37,407 nt of DNA from Acidobacteriota bacterium (GTDB taxonomy: Bacteria > Acidobacteriota > Vicinamibacteria > Vicinamibacterales > UBA8438): the NCBI GenBank assembly GCA_026706755.1, contig JAPOYG010000505.1, positions 1 through 37,407 of the forward strand, in the 5' to 3' direction. Below, piece by piece: positions 404-37,407 of this stretch; within the stretch, counting starts at the first letter, position 1, and the number at the start of each line of letters is the position of its first letter. The position numbers were made by a program, and so were the translations under genes. The notes beneath the pieces were generated by a model. The model was not told the DNA's origin and searched no databases. It saw only the letters and a list, made by a program, of their open reading frames with translations.

Positions 404-1645
404 CTAGTGACTGCGCCACGATCCTGCGCGGCGCGATCCGCCGGCTTCCCCGCCGCCCGGCGAGGCTCGCATGCCGGCGAACAGACGCCGGTGCCCTTCC
501 ACGATGCGCCGCTCCGCCTCCGTGTCGAAGTCGAGACTGCCGTTACCGCGCTCGTAGGTGCCGCCGAGGAGAATCCCGTCCGAGCGGGGGATCATGTACA
601 GCCCGCCCTCCAGGACGATGTAGTCGACCTCGGGCTGCGGAAGGAGGATGGTGAGTTGCCCCTTGACCGGAACGAGCTGCCCGTCGCCGAACAGCGCGGC
701 CGCCCCGAGCCCGGTGCAGTTGACGACGACGCGCTCGGAAATGCGCTCCGCCACCTCCGTCCGATCGCGCAACTCGCCCACTACCACCGAGCCGCCCGCG
801 ATGCGGAAGTCGCGCAGCAGCGCGTTCAGGTAGATGGCCGGCTCGATCAGCATCGTCCGGACGCGGTTCGCCGCGCGCGCCGCGAACGGGTGCTCGTGCG
901 GCTCGAGGTCGGTCGAGCTGGCGTAGACGTCCGGCAGCAGATCGACCAGCCAGCTCGATCCCGGCTCGTCGGCGAGGTAGTAGTTGTCGATCCAGCGTAC
1001 GCCGTAGCCCGCGCCGACGAAGTCCTGGTAGTGGCGGTAGGCGATCCGGCTCGCCCGCGCGAACTGCTCGACGAACGCGGGCGTCGCGACGCCGCGGTCG
1101 AAGACCGACGAGGGCGTCCACTGCCCGCCGGCGACGTTGGAGGTCGTGCGAGGCGGGAGATCGCGCGCGTAGATGGTCACCGCCCAGCCCCGGCGCTGGA
1201 GCAGACGGGCCGTGGCGAGCCCTACCACTCCGCAGCCGAGCACGGCCGCGCGCCGCTCCTGCCCGACGGCCGCGGCCTCCGCCTCCCGGACCGCGAGCTC
1301 GGCCGTGCCCCACGACAGCGTGATGCCGCCGCCTCCGTGGCCGTAGTTGTGGACGACGATCTGTTCGCCGAGCCGCTCGGCGCGCAGGACGAAACCGGCG
1401 GGGCGGAACGGCCGCAGGCCCACGACGCGCCGGATGATTCGGTTCCACGCCACGTCGACGGGCGCGAGGACGGGGACGTCCACGGCCGGCGTAACGGGGG
1501 GCGCGTCGCGGGCGGCACACCCGGACGCGACAAGGGCGCCGGGCGCCGCGACGGCGCCGACGAAGGCGCGACCGCCCCAGCGGAGGGCGGCGCGGCGCGT
1601 GAGGTGGCGCGGCGCGGGCCCGCGAGCATGGTCTGGAGCGAACAT
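404..1645 (-). CDS. Exported FAD-dependent oxidoreductase, DAO family, apparently circularly permuted
   Basis: 413 aa. The N-terminus has a Tat-like signal (TRRAALRWGG, hydrophobic stretch, then ASGC at about residue 43, possible lipid attachment). The FAD Rossmann motif GCGVVG is at 137-142, followed by TSNVAGGQWTPSSVFD, VNCTGLGA, VKGQ and LGGTYERG, all in normal D-amino-acid oxidase order. The block that closes ordinary DAO proteins (VGLRPFRP, then VVHNYGHGGGGITLSWG) instead sits before the Rossmann motif, at about 74-113, and the protein ends soon after HRRLFAGM, just where that block would be expected. The last 20 or so residues are Gly/Ser/Arg-rich filler. Known DAO enzymes oxidise amines or amino acids to imines with release of H2O2; the substrate here is unknown. 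The start at 1645 precedes the signal; the longer open frame upstream overlaps the divergent acetyltransferase and is not used. Confidence 0.85.
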   Translation of the reverse strand: MFAPDHARGPAPRHLTRRAALRWGGRAFVGAVAAPGALVASGCAARDAPPVTPAVDVPVLAPVDVAWNRIIRRVVGLRPFRPAGFVLRAERLGEQIVVHNYGHGGGGITLSWGTAELAVREAEAAAVGQERRAAVLGCGVVGLATARLLQRRGWAVTIYARDLPPRTTSNVAGGQWTPSSVFDRGVATPAFVEQFARASRIAYRHYQDFVGAGYGVRWIDNYYLADEPGSSWLVDLLPDVYASSTDLEPHEHPFAARAANRVRTMLIEPAIYLNALLRDFRIAGGSVVVGELRDRTEVAERISERVVVNCTGLGAAALFGDGQLVPVKGQLTILLPQPEVDYIVLEGGLYMIPRSDGILLGGTYERGNGSLDFDTEAERRIVEGHRRLFAGMRASPGGGEAGGSRRAGSWRSH

Positions 1646-4040: not shown

Positions 4041-5015
4041 TCAGTCGAGCCGCGCCCAGAGGATGGTGCTCTGCCCCTCACGCCCCTCGTCGTCGACGCC
4101 GACCGGCGGCCGCAGCGCCAGGTGCGTGTCGGTCAGCTCGTAGAACCGCTGCGCGTCGGTGCCGCTCTGTCCGGGGTCCTCGTTGCCGATGCGGTGGTGC
4201 ACGAGGTAGCTCTCCTCCTCGTTCACCGAGAAGGGGCCGAAGTAGCTGCCGTAGCTGAGGACGGTCGCCAGCGCCTCCTCCGCCGTCGGCTCGTCGCCGG
4301 CGTAGGACATGCGGCCGGGCCGCATCAGGTGCACGGACATGTGTCCGGACGGGGCGTACATGATGTAGGCGGTCTCGTACTGATCGACCTCGATCGGCTC
4401 GCCGTCGGTCGTCTCGCGCGAGATCGACTCCACGCGGTAGGCCCCGAAGAGCCGTCGATGCGTGTCCGTCAGCTCCGCCTCGGGAATCGCGGGGAGCCGT
4501 TCCCAGGTGATGAACGACCTCGCGCCGTCCTCGCTGGCCGGAGGCTGCAGGATGAGGTTGTCGCCTTCGAACGTGAAGAAGCGCTGGTAGTCGGAGCCGG
4601 CGCCGTCCGGGTTCAGGCTCCCCTCGAGGTGGTGGGTCACGTACCCCTCGGCCTCGTTGACGGTGAACCGCCCGAAGTAGGAAGCGTAGCTGCCCATCTG
4701 GGCCAGCGCCTCCTCGCCCGTCGGCCCGTCCTCGGAGTACGGCTCCCGGTCGGGCTGCATGAGGGCGACGCCCATGTATCCGGCCGGGTCGTACATGATG
4801 TAGCCCACCCGGTTCTCCAGGGGCTCGCCGATCAGCTCACCGTCGGCGTCGCGCCGCTCGCTCCGCACCAGCGACCAGGCGCCGGCGAAGCGATCGTTCG
4901 GGTTCGCCGCCTCCATCTCCTCCGCCGGCTCGGCGGGTTCGCTCCCCCCGCAGGCGAACGACACGCCGAGGATGAGGGTGGCCGTTGCGAGCAGCGCGAA
5001 TCTGGTGGTCCGCAT
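4041..5015 (-). CDS. Exported lipoprotein with two lipocalin-like domains
   Basis: 324 aa. It opens with a short signal and a Cys at residue 22 (LGVSFAC, an imperfect lipobox), followed by an acidic linker. Two homologous halves follow. The first (about 43-163) runs FAGAWSLVRSERR, YIMYDPAGYMGVALMQPDR, SYASYFGRFTVNEAEGYVTHH, NLILQPP. The second (about 188-308) runs LFGAYRVESISRE, YIMYAPSGHMSVHLMRPGR, SYGSYFGPFSVNEEESYLVHH, HLALRPP. This W/Y-x-L-V...YIMYxPxGxM pattern is that of the lipocalin-like domain found in bacterial secreted proteins, which usually occurs once. The ligand is unknown. A GGGAGG ribosome site precedes the ATG at 5015. Confidence 0.8.
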   Translation of the reverse strand: MRTTRFALLATATLILGVSFACGGSEPAEPAEEMEAANPNDRFAGAWSLVRSERRDADGELIGEPLENRVGYIMYDPAGYMGVALMQPDREPYSEDGPTGEEALAQMGSYASYFGRFTVNEAEGYVTHHLEGSLNPDGAGSDYQRFFTFEGDNLILQPPASEDGARSFITWERLPAIPEAELTDTHRRLFGAYRVESISRETTDGEPIEVDQYETAYIMYAPSGHMSVHLMRPGRMSYAGDEPTAEEALATVLSYGSYFGPFSVNEEESYLVHHRIGNEDPGQSGTDAQRFYELTDTHLALRPPVGVDDEGREGQSTILWARLD

Positions 5016-5103
5016 CGTTGTCCTCCCGACCCGAAAGTCAAGCGTGCCGGCATCTTAGCGCGACACGGAAGCCGCCCGCCACCGGGCCGCGGCGGAGCGG
5101 CAG

Positions 5104-5373
5104 TCAGTCGTCGCCGTCCCGCGCCGACTCGCCGCCGTCGCCGGGCTGGCCGGCGCTCCCCCCGCCGCGGGCGGCGCGGCGCCTTCCGAGCGCCGGCGGC
5201 GCCGACTCCGCTTCGCCGGCGCGCGCCGGGAGCCGGCCCGCCTGCTGCAGCGCCCGGCGGAGGACGAAGTCGATCTGCCCGTTGACGCTCCGCAGCTCGT
5301 CGGCGGCCCAGCGCTGCAGGGCGGCGAGAACCTCCGGCTCGGTGCGCAGCAGGAACGGCTTGCGTGCGGCCAT
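5104..5373 (-). CDS. Ribbon-helix-helix (Arc-like) regulator
   Basis: 89 aa. Residues 4-43 ([19 protein letters not shown], then [18 protein letters not shown]) match the Arc/MetJ ribbon-helix-helix pattern: an N-terminal strand that reads DNA, then two helices with the SVNGQID turn. The tail (about 50-89) is Ala/Gly/Arg-rich and acidic at the end, likely disordered. It sits 74 nt downstream of the SPFH gene in the same orientation. Small RHH genes directly after SPFH genes are a pairing I recognise from other bacterial genomes. It probably regulates its own operon through the palindrome at 6366-6377 (inference). AAGGT upstream is a usable ribosome site. Confidence 0.85.
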
Positions 5374-5447
5374 CGGTGCGACCTTGCTGAACGGCCTGGA
5401 CGAGGATCAGGACGAGGAACCGTCGGGCGGCGTATCCTCGATTCCGG

Positions 5448-6332
5448 CTACTGGTGCAGCGTGCCCGTGTTGACGACCGGCTGCGTCGCCTTGTCGCCGC
5501 ACAGCACGACCAGCAGGTTGCTGACCATGGCTGCCTTCCGCTCCTCGTCGAGCTCGACGATGTTGCGGTTGGAGAGGCTGTCGAGGGCCATCTGCACCAT
5601 GCTGACCGCCCCGTCGACGATGCGGCTGCGGGCGGCGATGATGGCGCCCGCCTGCTGGCGCTGGAGCATCGCCGAGGCGATCTCCGGCGCGTAGGCCAGG
5701 TGGGTGATCCGCGCCTCGAGCACCTCGACCCCGGCCTTGTGCAGCCGCCCCTGGATCTCGGTCTGCAATTGCCCGGCGATCTCCTCCGTGTTGCCGCGCA
5801 GCGACGTCTGCGCCTCCTCGTGCGCGTCGTACGGGTAGCGGGTGGCCAGGTTCCGGACCGCGGACTCGCTCTGGACGTTGACGTAGTGGACGTAGTCGTC
5901 CACCTCGAAAACGGCCTCGGCCGTGTCGACCACCTTCCACACGACCACCGCCGCGATCTCGATGGGGTTGCCCTCGGTGTCGTTCACCTTGGAGCGCGCG
6001 GTCTCGAAGTTGCGGACGCGCAGCGAGACCGAGCGCCGCCCGGAGAGCGCGTACAGCGGATTGGCCCAGCGCAGCCCGGGTTCGCGGGCCGTGCCGACAT
6101 AGCGCCCGAACAGCAGCAGCACGCGCGCCTGGTTCGGATTGACGACGAAGAGACCGACGAACAGAAAGATGATGACCGGAAGCGCAAGGGTGTTGGCCAG
6201 CCCGGTCAGAGACACCTGCTGGTCCGTGGCAACGTCGATGACGAACCACGTGATGTCCGCCACGAGCGCAACGATCAAGGCGAACAGCACGAGCCAGCCC
6301 GAGGCGGCGGCGAACGACTTCTCCTGAATCAT
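5448..6332 (-). CDS. SPFH/Band 7 domain membrane protein
   Basis: 294 aa. There are two N-terminal membrane segments (about 13-34 and 44-65, the second ending [20 protein letters not shown]), then the SPFH domain: [38 protein letters not shown], and ALRxGRYPY-type positions in [15 protein letters not shown] coiled region (about 170-235) follows with the [20 protein letters not shown] block typical of slipin/stomatin-like proteins. Such proteins oligomerise in membranes and organise microdomains or regulate proteases. No NfeD-type partner gene is beside it; its partner here is the RHH gene. AGGAGGG sits ideally before ATG 6332. Confidence 0.9.
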
Positions 6333-13344: not shown

Positions 13345-14706
13345 ATGAAGAGGCCCCTCGCCCCGCCGCCGCTCGAGAAGCTCCTCGAAAGACACAAGCA
13401 GCGTCTACCTGACGTGCTGAGGCTCGGCGGACAGCCGACGGTGGGCGGGCACTACATCCACTGGGACCAGCTGCGGCGCAAGACACCTCGGCCGGCCGAT
13501 CTGAGCGCCGGTGAGTGGTGGACCGGCATCCGGTTGGCCCGTTTCAGTCAGTCGAGACCCCTCCCGCTCGAGGATACGCGCGGCCGGCCGTTCCTCTACA
13601 TGCTCCCGGACCGTGTCCTCGAGGCGCTGCACCGTATCGACAGCGGTGCCAGCGGTCGGATCGGTGTCACCGAGGCAGTGACCAATCCGGCGACACGCGA
13701 TCAGTTCATCGTCAGCTCTCTGATCCGGGAGGCGATCACGTCGAGCCAGCTCGAAGGGGCGTCGACGACTCGCGCCGCGGCGGCGAGAATGATCCGCGCC
13801 GGCCGGCGACCGCGGAATCGTAGCGAACGGATGATCCTGAACAACTATCGCGCGATGCGCGAGGTCCGCGAGATGAAGGATCAGCCGTTGACCGTCGAGG
13901 CGGTGCTCGCCCTGCATCGAGCGGTCACCGACGGCACGCTCGACGATCCGGCTGCCGCCGGCCGGCTGCAACTCCCGGGCGAGGATCGCGTCGAGGTTTG
14001 CGACGCCCAGGGGCAGATCCTTCACCGACCGCCCCCGGCGGACCGGCTACCAGAACGGCTGCGAGCGATGGTCCGATTCGCCAACGCCGAGAACGGGGCC
14101 GACACGCCGCATGGCAACCCCTTTCTGCACCCGGTCATCCGTGCGATCGTGCTGCACTTCTGGCTCGCGTACGACCATCCGTTCGCCGACGGCAACGGGC
14201 GCACCGCCCGAGCCCTCTTCTACTGGGCGATGCTGCGCCGCGGCTATTGGATGTTCGAGTTCCTGTCGATCAGCCGGTTTCTCAAGGCGGCTCCCGTGCA
14301 GTACGCCCAAGCCTTTCTCCATACGGAGACGGACGCGAGCGACGCGACCTACTTCATCGTGCACCAGGTCGACGTTATCCAGCGGGCGCTCGACGCGCTG
14401 GACCGGTACCTCCAGTTGAAGGCGGCGCAGGCGGCACGGATCGACCGGTTGCTCCGCCGCGGGACGGACCTGAACCATCGCCAACTCGCACTCCTCGCCC
14501 ACGCGGTTCGGCACCCGGACTGGGAGTACACGACGCGCTCTCACATGACCAGTCACGACGTGGTCTACGCCACTGCCCGCGCGGACCTGTTCCGGCTGGC
14601 GGAACTGAGCCTGCTCGAGCGGCAGAAGCGTGGACGCAAGCTCAACGTCTTCCGGGCGCCGTCGGATCTCGAAGCGCGTATCCGGGGACTTCGAGCAGTG
14701 CTCTGA
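13345..14706 (+). CDS. Fic-domain AMP transferase with C-terminal winged helix
   Basis: 453 aa, cytoplasmic. A Fic N-terminal region (about 30-150) contains the inhibitory helix motif SSQLEG (Ser133 to Gly138; S/T-x-x-x-E-G), which places it in the class with a built-in inhibitor. The Fic core carries the full active motif HPFADGNGRTAR (278-289), so catalytic His278 and the phosphate-binding residues are intact. Residues about 365-453 look like a winged helix-turn-helix (LNHRQLALLAHAVRHP, then LFRLAELSLLERQKRGRKL). Fic proteins usually transfer AMP from ATP to a Ser, Thr or Tyr of a target protein. No separate antitoxin gene is adjacent. The AT-rich repeats just upstream fit autoregulation. 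The ribosome site is weak. Confidence 0.93.
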   Translation: MKRPLAPPPLEKLLERHKQRLPDVLRLGGQPTVGGHYIHWDQLRRKTPRPADLSAGEWWTGIRLARFSQSRPLPLEDTRGRPFLYMLPDRVLEALHRIDSGASGRIGVTEAVTNPATRDQFIVSSLIREAITSSQLEGASTTRAAAARMIRAGRRPRNRSERMILNNYRAMREVREMKDQPLTVEAVLALHRAVTDGTLDDPAAAGRLQLPGEDRVEVCDAQGQILHRPPPADRLPERLRAMVRFANAENGADTPHGNPFLHPVIRAIVLHFWLAYDHPFADGNGRTARALFYWAMLRRGYWMFEFLSISRFLKAAPVQYAQAFLHTETDASDATYFIVHQVDVIQRALDALDRYLQLKAAQAARIDRLLRRGTDLNHRQLALLAHAVRHPDWEYTTRSHMTSHDVVYATARADLFRLAELSLLERQKRGRKLNVFRAPSDLEARIRGLRAVL

Positions 14707-30998: not shown

Positions 30999-32357
30999 CT
31001 ACAGGTCCGAGAGCTCGGTCAGCTCGCCCGTGCTGTCCCCGATCCGCTCGACCGGCACCCCGACCTTGTCGAGCAGGCTCACGTAGAGGTTCGCCAGCGG
31101 CGTCCCGTCTCCGTAGCGCACGTGGCGGCCCCCGGAGAGCCCGCCCGCCCCGCCGCCGGCCACCAGGATGGGCAGTCGGCGGGGTGTATGCAGGTTGCTG
31201 TTGCTCATCCCGCTGCCGTAGACGATCGCCACGTGGTCGAGGAGCGACCCGTCGCCGTCCGGCGTGGATCGCAGCCGCTCGAGGTAGTCGGCGAACAGGC
31301 GGACGTGGAACGTGTTGACCATCGTCAGCTTCGCCAGCTTCTCCGCGTCGTTGTGGTGGTGCGACAGCGGGTGGTGCTGGTCGGGCACGCCGATCTCCGG
31401 ATAGGTCCGGTTGCTGATCTCCTTGGCCACCATGAACGTGATGACGCGGGTGAGGTCGGCCTGGTAGGCGAGCACCTGCAGGTCGAACATGACGCGGGCG
31501 TAGTCCTCGAAGGACTCCGGGATGCCGCCCGAGGGGCGCTCCACCGCCGGCAACTCGCGCGCTCCCTGTCGCTCGGCGTTCTCGATCCGGCGCTCGACAT
31601 CCCGGATGGCGTCCAGATACTCGGCGAGCTTGGCGCGATCCGGCGCCCCGAGCTCCCGATCGAGGCGGCGAACCTTGTCCGACACCGAGTCGAGGATGCT
31701 GCGCTCGGCTTCCAGGCGGGCCAGACGGTCCGCCGGGTCGGTGCTGTCGCTGTCGCCGAACAGGCGCTCGAACGCCGCGCGCGGATTGTTCTCCATCGGC
31801 AGCGGCGTCGTCGGACTGCGCCAGCAGAGGGTGTTGACGTAGGCGCAACTGAAGCCCGCGTCGCATGCGCCGGCCATCTCCGTCGACTCCAGGCTGAGCT
31901 CGAGCGACGCCACCTGCGTCCGGCGGCCGAGCTCCGTCGCGGCGATCTGGTCCATCGAGACGCCCGCCTCGACGTCGGCGCCCTCGGTCGGCTTCGCGTG
32001 CACGCCGGTCAGGAACGCCCCGCCGATGCGTCCGTGCCCACCCGCGGGCTCGCCCTTGACCGCGAGCGCCGGGCGGTTGTCGAGCCCGGTCAACACCAGC
32101 AGACGATCCCGGAACGGCGAGAGCGGGGCGAGGATCGGCGAGAACTCGAAGTCCACCCCCTCGCCGGCAGGCGTCCAGTTGTCCATCACGGCGCCGTGCG
32201 GCACGTAGACGACGCCCAGGCGCCGCACGGGCCGGGCCGCCGTGTTGCGCAGGGCCGCGTAGGCCGGCACCATGCCGTCCAGCAGGGGCAACGCGATGGT
32301 GGCGCCGAGGCCGCGCAGGACGGTCCGCCGAGGGATGGCCTGCTTCGTGATGATCAT
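30999..32357 (-). CDS. Tat-exported DUF1552 protein, copy 2
   Basis: 452 aa. A Tat signal (IPRRTVLRGLGATIALPLLD) leads into the DUF1552 domain: RRLGVVYVPHGAVMDNWTP, LLVLTGLDNRPAL, GGHGRIGGAFLTGVHAKPT, SLELSLESTEMAGACDAGFS, WRSPTTPLPMENNPRAAFER, VMFDLQVLAYQADLTRVITF, HHPLSHHHNDAEKL and a terminal LLDHVAIVYGSGMSNSNLHT. The family is related to alkaline-phosphatase/sulfatase-like DUF1501 proteins; no biochemical role is established to my knowledge. The ATG overlaps the stop of the upstream DUF1592 gene by 4 nt (ATGA), so the two are translationally coupled and likely act together. Confidence 0.92.
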   Translation of the reverse strand: MIITKQAIPRRTVLRGLGATIALPLLDGMVPAYAALRNTAARPVRRLGVVYVPHGAVMDNWTPAGEGVDFEFSPILAPLSPFRDRLLVLTGLDNRPALAVKGEPAGGHGRIGGAFLTGVHAKPTEGADVEAGVSMDQIAATELGRRTQVASLELSLESTEMAGACDAGFSCAYVNTLCWRSPTTPLPMENNPRAAFERLFGDSDSTDPADRLARLEAERSILDSVSDKVRRLDRELGAPDRAKLAEYLDAIRDVERRIENAERQGARELPAVERPSGGIPESFEDYARVMFDLQVLAYQADLTRVITFMVAKEISNRTYPEIGVPDQHHPLSHHHNDAEKLAKLTMVNTFHVRLFADYLERLRSTPDGDGSLLDHVAIVYGSGMSNSNLHTPRRLPILVAGGGAGGLSGGRHVRYGDGTPLANLYVSLLDKVGVPVERIGDSTGELTELSDL

Positions 32358-34777
32358 GGCTCCGGTCTCCTGATCCGCATCGTGAAGGGCGTGCTCTCGA
32401 CGATTCCGAGGATGATCGAGGACCAGCGATAGTCGTCCGGGCGCGCCTCCCGCACGATCGCCCGGATGGCCGGCATGTCGTAGTGCTCGACGCCTCGGCC
32501 CACCGCGTACGTCAGCAGACGGCTCGTCACCGTGGTGACGAACTCCTCCGCGCGATCCTCCAGCAGCCGCCGCAGGTCCGCCGCGCCGTCGAAGGTGGTG
32601 CCGTTCGGCAGCGAGCCGGAAGCGTCGATCGGAAGGCCGCGGTCGCTGGTCCGCCACCGCCCGATGCCGTCGAAGTTCTCGAGCGCGAAGCCGAGCGGGT
32701 CCATCCGCGCGTGGCAGCTCGCGCAGACCGCGTTGGCGCGATGCCGTTCCAGGCGCTCCCGCATCGAGCGCGGCGTGCCGGCCTCGTCGACCTCCTCGAG
32801 CTCGGGCACGTCGGGCGGCGGCGCCGGCGGCGGGGCACCGAGGATGTTCTCCAGCAGCCACTTGCCGCGTACCACCGGAGACGTTCGCGTCGCGTAGGAG
32901 GTCACCGTCAGGATGCTGCCGTGCCCCAGGAGACCCCTCCGCGCCTCGTCGGCCAGCGCCACTCGCCGGAAGTGGCCGCCGTGGACGTTCGGGACGTCGT
33001 AGTGCTGGGCCAGGCGCTCGTTCAGGAACGTGTAGTCGGCCGTCAGCAGCTCGACGACGCTGCGGTCGTGGTCGAGCTGGCTCGCGACGAACAGCTCCGT
33101 CTCCCGCTCGAATGCGCGGCGAAGGTTGTCGTCGAACTCGGGGAACTCCCGCACGTCGGGCGTCACGGCACGCACGTTCCGCAGGTGCAGCCACTGCGCG
33201 GCGAAGTTCTCGACGAGCGCCGCCGCGCGGTCGTCCGCCAGCATGCGCCGCACCTGCCGTCGGAGAACGGCGGGTCGGCTCAGCCGTCCGGCGGTCGCGA
33301 GCGCGACGAGCTCGTCGTCGGGGATGCTGCTCCAGAGGAAAAAGGACAGCCGCGACGCCAGCTCGAGGTCGCTCAGGCGGTAGGCGGTCCCGGCCGGCAC
33401 GTGCGCGGGGTCGCGCTCGACGCGGAACAGGAACTCGGGGTCGACCAGGATCCGCTCGAGGGCGCGCCGTATGCCGGCGTCGAAGTCGCCCGCGCGGCGA
33501 CCGGCTTCGTACTGGCGCAGGAGCGGCCGCAGATCGTCCTCGGCCACCGGCCGCCGCCAGGCCCGCCGCGCCAGGGTTCGCAGGATCTGCCGGGCGCAGC
33601 CCCGTTCGTCCTGGGGGGCGTCCGGCCGGCAGACGAAGATCCGACGCCGGCTCGGGCTGTCGCCGACTCCTTCGACGTCGTACGGACCGGCGATGTCGAT
33701 GCTCTGCACGCCGGTCTGCCGAAAGCTGATGCTGCCCACCGGGAGGTACGCGGGCGTCAATCCTTCCGGAGCCGACGTGATCGCCGCGAACGCCGCGCCG
33801 ACGAGCCGCGAGCCGGCCTTCACCCGCACGCGGACCACCACCGGCCGGTCCGCGCCCCCGTAGTCAACCGTCTCGGCGACCTCCGGTCCACCCGCCCCCG
33901 GATCCCCCAGCGGCACGAGCGCCAGCCGCTCGCCGTCGAGTCGGATGTCGAGCTGCTCGCGCGACGTTCGCGGCGGACGGCTCGTGAGGTGGATGGCGAT
34001 CTCGTACTCGCCGTCGAGAGGGAAGAGGTGTCGAAGCGCCAGACCGCCGCGCGTTCCGAACGGCAACTCCTCGCTCATGCGGTCGTCCTGCACGAGCGCC
34101 TTCGGCACGCGATACGTCTCCACCCCCGGACGCAGGGCGGGATCGCCGATCGCCAGCCGGCTGATCCTGCGGGCGGCCAGCAGGTATCGCTCGAGCAGCC
34201 CGGGGGAGAACGCCAGCGCATCCGCGATGTTGTCGAAGCCGAAGGCCTGATCGTCGGCCGGCAGCAACGTCCGGGCGTCAATCTCCACCGCCAGCAGATC
34301 GCGGATGGCATTGGCGTACTCGACCCGATTCAGCCGATGCAGGGCCGGCCGTCCCGGATTCGGCCGAGCGGCTGCCACGCGATCGAGGCCGTCCTCCAGC
34401 CACGAAGCGAACGCGTCGTAGGTTTCGGGCGCCGGCCGCGCCCGCGGGGGCGGCGGCATCTCGCGGGTCCGCAGCTTCTGGACGACCCTCTCCCACACCG
34501 GCGCATCTGCGGCGAGGTCGTGGATGTCGACGTTGTCGAGGGTCAGGTGGGCGGTGCGGAGGCGTGCGTTATGGCAGGTGACGCAGTAGCGATCGAGGAC
34601 GGCGCGATAGGTGGAGGCGGCGGACGGCTCGATTCCGGCCGCCGATGCGGGCGCCCCCGGCGGCCGGGCCGCCTCGGCTGCACGCGCGGGCTCCGCCGAG
34701 CCCACCAGGCAGGCGGCCGCGATCGCGCCGACGACGACATGCTCCCCGATCCGGCCGCCCGGGTGCATCTGTCGCAT
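32354..34777 (-). CDS. Exported cytochrome-like DUF1592 multidomain protein, copy 2
   Basis: 807 aa from ATG 34777 (ATG 34768 also possible), which directly precedes a signal helix (HVVVGAIAAACLVGSAEPA). Domain order follows the planctomycete-type set: N-terminal cytochrome c-like region with CVTCHN (Cys65, Cys68, His69), DUF1587 (ALHRLNRVEYANAIRDLLAV), a carbohydrate-binding-like middle part, DUF1595 (LRTLARRAWRRPVAEDDLRP), DUF1592 (YRLSDLELASRLSFFLWSSI, TADYTFLNERLAQHY), DUF1588 (GHGSILTVTSYATRTSPVVR, with CASCHARMDPLG, Cys685) and DUF1585 at the end (TYAVGRGVEHYDMPAIRAIV). The two CxxCH motifs suggest c-type heme; reports of activity are lacking. The gene is coupled to the DUF1552 gene that follows. 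Confidence 0.92.
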   Translation of the reverse strand: MRQMHPGGRIGEHVVVGAIAAACLVGSAEPARAAEAARPPGAPASAAGIEPSAASTYRAVLDRYCVTCHNARLRTAHLTLDNVDIHDLAADAPVWERVVQKLRTREMPPPPRARPAPETYDAFASWLEDGLDRVAAARPNPGRPALHRLNRVEYANAIRDLLAVEIDARTLLPADDQAFGFDNIADALAFSPGLLERYLLAARRISRLAIGDPALRPGVETYRVPKALVQDDRMSEELPFGTRGGLALRHLFPLDGEYEIAIHLTSRPPRTSREQLDIRLDGERLALVPLGDPGAGGPEVAETVDYGGADRPVVVRVRVKAGSRLVGAAFAAITSAPEGLTPAYLPVGSISFRQTGVQSIDIAGPYDVEGVGDSPSRRRIFVCRPDAPQDERGCARQILRTLARRAWRRPVAEDDLRPLLRQYEAGRRAGDFDAGIRRALERILVDPEFLFRVERDPAHVPAGTAYRLSDLELASRLSFFLWSSIPDDELVALATAGRLSRPAVLRRQVRRMLADDRAAALVENFAAQWLHLRNVRAVTPDVREFPEFDDNLRRAFERETELFVASQLDHDRSVVELLTADYTFLNERLAQHYDVPNVHGGHFRRVALADEARRGLLGHGSILTVTSYATRTSPVVRGKWLLENILGAPPPAPPPDVPELEEVDEAGTPRSMRERLERHRANAVCASCHARMDPLGFALENFDGIGRWRTSDRGLPIDASGSLPNGTTFDGAADLRRLLEDRAEEFVTTVTSRLLTYAVGRGVEHYDMPAIRAIVREARPDDYRWSSIILGIVESTPFTMRIRRPEP

Positions 34778-34985
34778 ATCGCCCACCGTACCTCGCGACC
34801 CTGGGACCCCGGCGGGTCGGGCATCGCGCCGCGGGAACACACCGTACGCCTGGAACCAGCCGCGGCAAGTCGGCCGCGGTACATCCCGGGCGCCACGCAG
34901 CGGGAACCGCCGTCCGCCGGGCACCGGCCGCGAGCAGAGAACGGCCACGGACCGGGCTCCCGCACCCCGGCCCGACGCTCAGCCT
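34778..34985. other. Intergenic gap between the two DUF1592-DUF1552 pairs
   Basis: 208 nt, GC-rich. I see no clear terminator or promoter; the second pair may be read through from the first or have its own start. Confidence 0.35.
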
Positions 34986-36338
34986 CTACACGCCGGGAAG
35001 CGGTTCGAGCGGCAACACGCCGGTCGCGTCGCCGAAGTCTTCCGTGTGGACCCCCACCCGCCCCAGCATCGCCAGCAGCAGGTTGTTCATGGGCGTGTCC
35101 CTCGTGTGGCGCAGGACGCGGCCGCCCTTGACCCCGCCGGCCCCGCCGATCATCACGAGCGGCAGATCGATGTGCGAATGCTCGTTGGCGTCGCTGATGC
35201 CGCCGCCGTGGAGCACGAGCGAGTGGTCCAAGAGGTTCCCGTCGCCGTCGGGCGTCGCCTTCAGCGCCTTCAGGAAGTGCGCCGTCAGGCCGATGTGGTA
35301 CTGGTTGATCTTGTGCCCCTGCTCGAACTTCAGCGGGTCGTGCTGGTGGTGCGACACCGCGTGGTGCGCGGCGTTCACGCCCAGCTCCGGGTAGGCGCGG
35401 TTGGTCTGCTCCTTGCCCAGCGTCAGCACGAAGACGCGGGTGATGTCGGCCTGGAAGGCGAGCGCGACCAGATCGAACATCAGCTTCGCGTGCTCGTCGT
35501 ACGACTCCGGCACGCCGACCGGTCGGTCCGGCAGCTCCAGCGTGGACTCTCCGTGCTGGCGCTCCGCGACCTGCAGGCGCTGCTCGACCTCGCGCACGGA
35601 ATCGAGATACTCGTTCACGCTGCTGCGGTCCGCCGGGCCGAGCTTCGCCTTGAGCTCCGCGACGTCGGCGAGCACCCAGTCGAGGATGCTCCGATCCTCC
35701 TGCATCTGCGCCAGGCGCGCCTCCGGCGAGCCGCCGTCGCCGAACATCCGCTGGAAGACGATGCGCGGGTTCGTCTCGTGCGGGTTGGGCGTGGTCGGCG
35801 TCCGCCACGAGATGCTGTTCGTGTAGACGCAACTGTAGCCGTTGTCGCAGTTGCCGATCAGGTACGTCTGCTCCATCGCGAGCTCGAGCGACGTCAGCGG
35901 CGTGTCGCCGCCGATGTGCCGCGCCGCGATCTGGTCGGCGGTGATGCCGTTGCGGACGTCGGCGCCCTCGGTCTCCTTCGGGTGGACGCCGCTCAGGAAG
36001 ACGGTCCCGGCGCGGGAGTGCTCGCCGTTGCCGTCGCCGAGCGCCTCCGCCTGCTTCTGACTGAGGCCGATCGGAACGACCACCTGATTCCGGAACGGCG
36101 CGAGGGGGCTGAGCGTGGGGGAGAGCGTCTCGAGCTTGCCCTCACCCTCCGGCTGCCAGTGGGACATCACCGCGCCGTTCGGGATGTAGACGAACCCGAG
36201 GCGGCGCACCGGCCTGGCCGCCGTCTTCGCGAGGGCCGACGAGGCCGGCACCATCGCGTCGAGCAACGGCAGCGCGAGCGTGACACCCATCCCGCGGAGG
36301 AACGTCCGGCGGGGCAACGCCATCCTGGTGTTGAACAT
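34986..36338 (-). CDS. Tat-exported DUF1552 protein, copy 1
   Basis: 450 aa, ATG 36338 with AGGAG 8 nt upstream. Tat signal LPRRTFLRGMGVTLALPLLD, then the same blocks as the second copy: RRLGFVYIPNGAVMSHWQP, SRAGTVFLSGVHPKETEGAD, SLELAMEQTYLIGNCDNGYS, WRTPTTPNPHETNPRIVFQR, MFDLVALAFQADITRVFVLT, HHAVSHHQHDPLKFEQ and HSLVLHGGGISDANEHSHID. The conserved His clusters (HH...SHHQHD and NEHSH) could bind metal (inference). It lies 44 nt after the partial DUF1592 gene, without the ATGA overlap seen in the other pair. Confidence 0.92.
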   Translation of the reverse strand: MFNTRMALPRRTFLRGMGVTLALPLLDAMVPASSALAKTAARPVRRLGFVYIPNGAVMSHWQPEGEGKLETLSPTLSPLAPFRNQVVVPIGLSQKQAEALGDGNGEHSRAGTVFLSGVHPKETEGADVRNGITADQIAARHIGGDTPLTSLELAMEQTYLIGNCDNGYSCVYTNSISWRTPTTPNPHETNPRIVFQRMFGDGGSPEARLAQMQEDRSILDWVLADVAELKAKLGPADRSSVNEYLDSVREVEQRLQVAERQHGESTLELPDRPVGVPESYDEHAKLMFDLVALAFQADITRVFVLTLGKEQTNRAYPELGVNAAHHAVSHHQHDPLKFEQGHKINQYHIGLTAHFLKALKATPDGDGNLLDHSLVLHGGGISDANEHSHIDLPLVMIGGAGGVKGGRVLRHTRDTPMNNLLLAMLGRVGVHTEDFGDATGVLPLEPLPGV

Positions 36339-36382
36339 GACGGTTCTCCTGCTCAGCTCTTCCGTTCGGTCTTCCCCGGCCG

Positions 36383-37407
36383 CTACTCCGCGCTCGGAGC
36401 CTGCGCCTGCCGCATCCGGAACGGCGTGCTCTTCACGACCCCGACGACGAGCGACGCCAGGCCGTAGTCGTTCTCCGCCGCGTCGCGCAGGATCTGGCGC
36501 ACGGCAGGGGCGTCGTAGTGCTCCACGCCCCGGCCGAGGGCGTAGATCAACAGCTTCTCCGTCACCACGGTAGCGAACTGCTCCGGGTTCCGGACGAGGA
36601 GGTCGCGCATGCCGGCCGGACCGTCGAAGGCGGTCCCGTCCGGCATCGATCCCGACGCGTCGATTGCCGTCCCGCCCGGCATGTGTCCCCGCCAGCGGCC
36701 GACCGCGTCGAAGTTCTCCAGAGCCAGCCCCAGCGGGTCCATCATGCGGTGGCAGCTCGCGCAGACCGGGTTGGCGCGGTGCTGCTCCATCCGTTCGCGC
36801 ATCGCCAGCACCTGCCCCGCATCCTCCGCCGGCTCGAGCTCCGGCACGTTCGGCGGAGGGGGCGGAGGGGGCGTGCCGAGGACGTTCTCCAGCACCCACT
36901 TGCCGCGCCCGACCGGCGACGTGCGATCGGGATAGGACGTCACGGTGAGGATGCTGCCCTGCCCGAGCAGCCCCCGGCGATTCGCGTCGGGGAGCGCAAC
37001 CCGCCGGAAGTCGCTGCCGTAGACCCCGGGAACACCGTAGTGCCGGGCCAGCCGCTCGTTCAGGAACGTGTAGTCGGCAGTCAGCAGGTCGGTGACGCGC
37101 CGGTCCTCCCGCAGGATGCTGTCGAAGAACAGCTCGGTCTCGCGCACGAAGTCCTGCCGCAGGCTCTCGCCGAAGTTGGGGAAGATGACGTCGGACGGCA
37201 GCGCCCCCGAGATGTTGCGCAGCCGCAGCCACTGGCCGGCGAAGTTCCTCGCCAGGGCCTCCGCCCGCGGGTCTCCGAGCATCCGCCGCACCTGGCGCTC
37301 GATCTCGTTCGGATCGTCGAGTGCTCCCGCGGCCGCGGCCTCCAGCAGCTCCTCGTCCGGCAGGCTGCTCCAGAGGAAGAAGGCGATGCGCGACGCCAGC
37401 GCGAGAT
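36383..37407 (-). CDS. DUF1592 multidomain protein, copy 1 (partial, 5' part beyond window)
   Basis: At least 341 codons; the N-terminal half lies outside the window. The visible part starts inside DUF1592 (LASRIAFFLWSSLPDEELLE), continues with LTADYTFLNERLARHYGVPG, then DUF1588 (GQGSILTVTSYPDRTSPVGR, CASCHRMMDPLG) and DUF1585 (YALGRGVEHYDAPAVRQILR), ending SLVVGVVKSTPFRMRQAQAP. A Pro-rich linker (TPPPPPPNVPELEP) precedes the CxxCH. It aligns throughout with the 807-aa copy, so the missing part probably carries the signal, the first CxxCH and DUF1587/1595. First gene visible of the long minus-strand cluster. Confidence 0.9.
   Translation of the reverse strand, partial: LALASRIAFFLWSSLPDEELLEAAAAGALDDPNEIERQVRRMLGDPRAEALARNFAGQWLRLRNISGALPSDVIFPNFGESLRQDFVRETELFFDSILREDRRVTDLLTADYTFLNERLARHYGVPGVYGSDFRRVALPDANRRGLLGQGSILTVTSYPDRTSPVGRGKWVLENVLGTPPPPPPPNVPELEPAEDAGQVLAMRERMEQHRANPVCASCHRMMDPLGLALENFDAVGRWRGHMPGGTAIDASGSMPDGTAFDGPAGMRDLLVRNPEQFATVVTEKLLIYALGRGVEHYDAPAVRQILRDAAENDYGLASLVVGVVKSTPFRMRQAQAPSAE

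Follow-up and report, generated by a model that had tools for sequence, protein, structure and literature searches.

Can the C-terminal block of D-amino-acid oxidase (DAAO), a flavoenzyme familiar from textbooks and applied in biotechnology and medicine, be encoded at the start of the protein? One gene raises this question in the window analysed here, a stretch of 37,407 nucleotides from an Acidobacteriota bacterium of the Vicinamibacterales group. An earlier note made from the sequence had proposed a circular permutation. Our analysis strongly favours this reading: the gene product is very probably a natural circular permutant within the DAAO and D-aspartate oxidase (DASPO) family, with an ordinary DAAO fold.

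Order of the motifs and predicted fold of the window protein

The window protein was assigned to the Pfam family DAO (PF01266, E = 2.3e-33, best stretch 133–392), and no NCBIfam model scored above its cut-off. Both the GxRPxR motif with the carboxylate-binding arginine and the HNYGHGGxG block are present. In the translation of positions 404–1645 (minus strand), VGLRPFRP occupies residues 75–82, HNYGHGGGGITLSWG residues 99–113 and GCGVVG residues 137–142, i.e., GLRPFRP, the loop and a helix come first, and the Rossmann motif follows. Following established DAAO biochemistry, we take R78 to be the arginine that binds the substrate carboxylate, and HNYGHGGGGIT to be the FAD loop. The last helix of the core corresponds to the one that leads into the C-terminal block in ordinary DAAO, and about 20 residues follow it before the stop (0–29 residues in the relatives, 109 loci). 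The earlier note placed the stop just after this helix; the same helix does end the core, but the last 18 residues, past 395, are a variable tail. The parts of the gene are given in Table 1.

Table 1. Parts of the permuted gene, in window positions.
Feature	Position	Strand	Basis
DAAO-family gene, permuted, 413 aa	404..1645	-	ORF translation; homologous loci
Twin-arginine signal R17 R18 and lipobox-like Cys43 (ASGC)	1517..1597	-	translation; motif conserved in the family
Counterpart of the DAAO C-terminal block, residues 66-128 (R78, HNYGHGGGGIT loop, helix)	1262..1450	-	phmmer, profiles, model, alignment, conservation
Start of the FAD-binding Rossmann domain and remaining DAAO core, residues 129-395	461..1261	-	Pfam, phmmer, VIA-align, full profile
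C-terminal tail, residues 396-413, low confidence, poorly conserved	407..460	-	alignment and AlphaFold

Comparison with proteins of known structure gave the same picture. In a phmmer search of the PDB, residues 131–383 matched residues 13–265 of human DASPO (6rkf), and residues 71–120 matched residues 280–332, in swapped order. Together with the translation, these matches confirm the earlier claim that the DAAO C-terminal block lies ahead of the Rossmann motif. The whole sequence matches as two pieces in exchanged order, each present exactly once. A profile built from 63 N-terminal blocks and searched alone against solved structures (E ≤ 0.1) matched only DAAO and DASPO chains, at their C-termini (7ct4 319–375, E = 7.5e-14; 6rkf 280–336, E = 1.9e-12). 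The resemblance is not due to chance, since the block profile alone matches DAAO C-termini at E = 7.5e-14. In the full profile (80 sequences) the part outside the block matched 6rkf 8–268, and the permuted chains, once cut and re-ordered, aligned end to end with canonical DAAO.

The AlphaFold2 model of residues 50–413 had a pLDDT of 93.1 and a pTM of 0.90. The N-terminal block reached a pLDDT of 96–98, with strands at 21–31, 37–43 and 46–52 and a helix at 55–76 (model numbering). Modelled alone, the block had a pLDDT of 71 and a pTM of 0.47, as against 0.90 for the whole protein, which argues that it is not an independent add-on domain. With VIA-align, which is sequential and therefore compared the core only, model residues 82–342 aligned to human DAAO 1–269 with Z of 22.5–23 and an rmsd of about 2 Å, and to human DASPO (6rkf) with Z of 23.6. 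Foldseek, also a sequential aligner, agreed on the DAAO/DASPO fold of the core. The DAAO fold is thus found structurally in the core (Z of 22–24 to DAAO and DASPO), and the likeness of the block is at the sequence level. Because both aligners require the same chain order, we infer from sequence homology and model confidence that the block would sit in the usual DAAO C-terminal site.

The homologous family, its spread and origin

The earlier note proposed a search for homologues with the same order. In each of the 109 clearly matching loci the order is permuted, with the block first and a single GHG block adjoining the core; none has the canonical order with the C-terminal block last. No second HNYGHGG block, which the note held to be incompatible with a permutation, lies downstream, and each homologous ORF carries one block. 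A genome-wide block search found only two copies in the source genome, the window gene and one paralogue. The latter (L002:1522-2697) is also permuted, is 52% identical, and has a histidine in place of the active-site tyrosine (GIHMQPR).

In a rival reading, a stray DAAO C-terminal block would have been fused to the front of a truncated DAO-type oxidase whose fold it does not complete, and the block is indeed a compact conserved segment. Yet in none of the relatives does the core have a C-terminal block of its own, both parts are strongly conserved and complement each other, and one compact fold is predicted for the whole but not for the block alone. We regard such a fusion as very improbable. 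An assembly error or mis-joined frame could be suspected because the source assembly is fragmented (713 contigs), but 109 loci share this order, among them named strains (Dokdonella, Luteolibacter, Ekhidna, Sphingopyxis, Blastomonas) and complete plasmids, which rules out mis-assembly and leaves this explanation with a negligible probability. The earlier preference for a permutation over a fusion or a mis-joined frame is therefore supported by the order in 109/109 loci, the complementary matches and the single compact fold, and further by the block not being predicted to be stable alone.

In the permutation that we favour, the ancestral C-terminal segment (arginine strand, second strand, HNYGHGG FAD loop and last helix) would have come to lie ahead of the Rossmann domain, joined to it by about six residues, with new termini between the helix at about 375–390 and the strand VVGLRP. 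On folding, such a chain would adopt the ordinary DAAO fold, with FAD bound and Arg78 holding the substrate carboxylate.

We found at least 568 confirmed relatives in the scan of the genome collection, of which the best 80 were retained. One relative (L031, 80% identical to the window protein) lies on an uncultured Vicinamibacterales chromosome, a genome of the same family, and 25 of 60 related genomes had a match at E ≤ 1e-10. Among the matches listed, relatives occurred, to judge from the record titles, in Acidobacteriota, Gemmatimonadota, Pseudomonadota, Verrucomicrobiota, Bacteroidota, Myxococcota and Zixibacteria, to which plasmids added Actinomycetota (Nonomuraea) and rhizobia. The rearranged, apparently exported enzyme is thus present in about eight bacterial phyla. 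With the permuted-block profile, which favours the permuted form, the block was found in 34 of 297 genomes of Acidobacteriota, mostly permuted and with the canonical form in the minority. The same profile, with the same bias, found it in 22 of 398 genomes of Pseudomonadota (20 permuted, two distant proteins with the block last). No intermediate with the block at both chain ends was found in these 297 and 398 genomes, and tblastn found no relative in viral contigs. The annotated plasmid relatives are named simply "FAD-dependent oxidoreductase", as the earlier note had supposed.

Some unusual loci proved to be ordinary. Two long frames considered as possible intermediates were a canonical DAAO with a C-terminal extension of about 350 residues, from one acidobacterial genome (L143, G199:C6), and an ordinary permuted gene (L144). 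Two annotated "FAD-dependent oxidoreductases" on a Mesorhizobium onobrychidis plasmid, considered as a split enzyme, are a single permuted gene, read as two ORFs because of a frameshift within the Rossmann motif (L116:5926-6989).

We placed the homologues on trees, as had also been proposed. In the tree of re-ordered chains all permuted rows fall on one side of a single branch (SH-aLRT 91), and so they do in the tree of the core only (SH-aLRT 80). In both trees the other side holds the canonical DAAO of Acidobacteriota and Actinomycetota, human DAAO (its row entered by hand) and human DASPO (assembled from the phmmer alignment). A long-branch canonical archaeal protein adjoins the split. The branch supports are moderate, and the trees are consistent with a single origin of the permuted lineage. 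Three subfamilies were distinguished: (a) the main Tat group, which includes the window protein; (b) the Kozakia/Niveispirillum type, with CxRPFR instead of GLRP and no active-site tyrosine; and (c) the Rhizobium/Bradyrhizobium/Nonomuraea type, in which the annotated ORFs of L111 and L112 lack the Tat motif. Members of the CxRPFR subfamily (L113, L115, L144, L154–L161) are permuted and have lost both the active-site tyrosine and the GGT motif; they may act on another substrate or lack catalytic activity.

Relation to known enzymes and known permutations

The window protein shares with DAAO and DASPO (human 2du8 and 6rkf, Rasamsonia 7ct4) the FAD motifs, the carboxylate arginine, the HNYGHGG loop and the core fold (Z of about 23). 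It differs from them by having the C-terminal block at the N-terminus, a Tat signal and a short substrate lid. Canonical bacterial DAAO (Streptomyces, Nocardia, Tsukamurella and some Acidobacteriota, L117–L128) have the same motifs and occur in the same phylum, but unlike the permuted form they keep the canonical order and their ORFs begin at or near the Rossmann motif. Glycine oxidase ThiO, MnmC and sarcosine oxidase share the Pfam family DAO (PF01266) and the core fold, but with lower Z (16–18), and the HNYGHGG block profile matched DAAO and DASPO chains only. The window protein is a relative of DAAO and DASPO by descent with a changed topology, a variant of the DAAO family.

Natural circular permutations occur in other families, such as the saposin-like proteins and DNA methyltransferases, and the rearrangement in the permuted DAAO is of the same kind. 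To our knowledge, none is known in the DAAO family. The earlier note knew of no description of the permutation, and the open-access full text searched contained nothing relevant on a permuted DAAO or FAD-Rossmann protein. GxRPxR and YGHGGxG have been given as signatures of bacterial DAAO, of which few examples are reported, with just over ten identified genes; the permutation is not mentioned there (PMC9844085). A widespread permuted lineage would be hard to spot with criteria that assume the usual order. It would also provide a natural permutant, with many sequences, for studies of the folding and evolution of the DAAO fold.

Conserved residues, putative export and gene neighbours

Arg78, the GxGxxG glycines (80/80), H99, GHGG at 102–105, N309 and G312 are invariant in the 80 proteins, as is S169 in the TTSNVA segment (80/80). 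Judged by alignment, these invariant positions correspond to the FAD-binding and carboxylate-binding residues of DAAO. Since these are kept, the likeliest role predicted for the enzyme is that of a Tat-exported, membrane-anchored D-amino-acid oxidase or dehydrogenase. Tyr350, the equivalent of human Tyr228, is present in the window protein. This position is tyrosine in 52 and histidine in 22 of the 80 proteins, and proteins of the Kozakia/Niveispirillum type lack the tyrosine; some members may therefore not be DAAOs. For the window protein itself, a substrate of another kind than free D-amino acids, e.g., a peptide-linked or secondary amine, is conceivable, and we consider it the less probable case. 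An E-HPF motif in the substrate domain (residues 251–254) is conserved in the permuted family and absent from canonical DAAO, and the window protein lacks a gating-loop insert of the human DAAO kind; against this, the carboxylate-binding arginine is invariant and Tyr350 is present.

The Tat-like signal reported for the window protein turned out to be a family trait: by pattern counts, 107 of 109 loci have the twin-arginine motif and 89 of 109 a lipobox-like cysteine, although the window protein's own lipobox, VASGC, is atypical. The two motifs suggest export of the enzyme in its folded state, with the cofactor loaded, and tethering on the outer side of the inner membrane. The protein would take up FAD and fold in the cytoplasm, be transported by the Tat pathway, become anchored outside the inner membrane (by the lipobox-like cysteine in most members) and there oxidise D-amino acids or similar amines. 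This suggests an extracytoplasmic, membrane-anchored D-amino-acid-oxidising activity in many soil and marine bacteria.

Such an enzyme might be a dehydrogenase, with a c-type cytochrome or the respiratory chain as the recipient of its electrons, rather than producing H2O2 outside the membrane. Immediately downstream in Kozakia, and in a Longimicrobiales relative that is close to the window protein, there is a gene for a c-type cytochrome or a CxxCH protein; three gammaproteobacterial loci have one within about 1 kb. There is no such neighbour beside the window gene or in most loci. We keep the dehydrogenase reading open because of these scattered cytochrome c neighbours, as a tentative alternative. 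Broader still, and rather doubtful, is the scenario of one ancient permutation at the root of a separate bacterial DAAO lineage, made up mostly of Tat-exported lipoproteins, that outnumbers the canonical form in Acidobacteriota and Pseudomonadota and works as a membrane-surface D-amino-acid dehydrogenase feeding the respiratory chain.

The neighbours of the gene in the window (GNAT, DinB, SGL, lipocalin, Band 7 and PQQ dehydrogenase) gave no functional link from gene context. In five sphingomonad loci (L096, L100, L101, L102 and L104; matches near 5001–6100) the permuted gene is flanked on one side by an hslV-like gene of the proteasome family and on the other by an hslU-like AAA gene, and all three share a strand. 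In the rhizobial/Nonomuraea branch (L111, L112, L114 and L116) a gene for a TPP-dependent enzyme follows the permuted gene, and in L111 and L112 a gene for an FAD-binding oxidoreductase precedes it; these neighbours possibly form a small pathway. Elsewhere in the window, a Fic/DOC-domain protein is encoded at 13345–14706 on the plus strand (Pfam E = 1.2e-16). Two repeated pairs, each a twin-arginine-type protein (RRTxLRGxGxTxALPLLD) adjoining large proteins, lie at 30999–37405 on the minus strand and presumably resemble pairs of the DUF1552/DUF1592 type.
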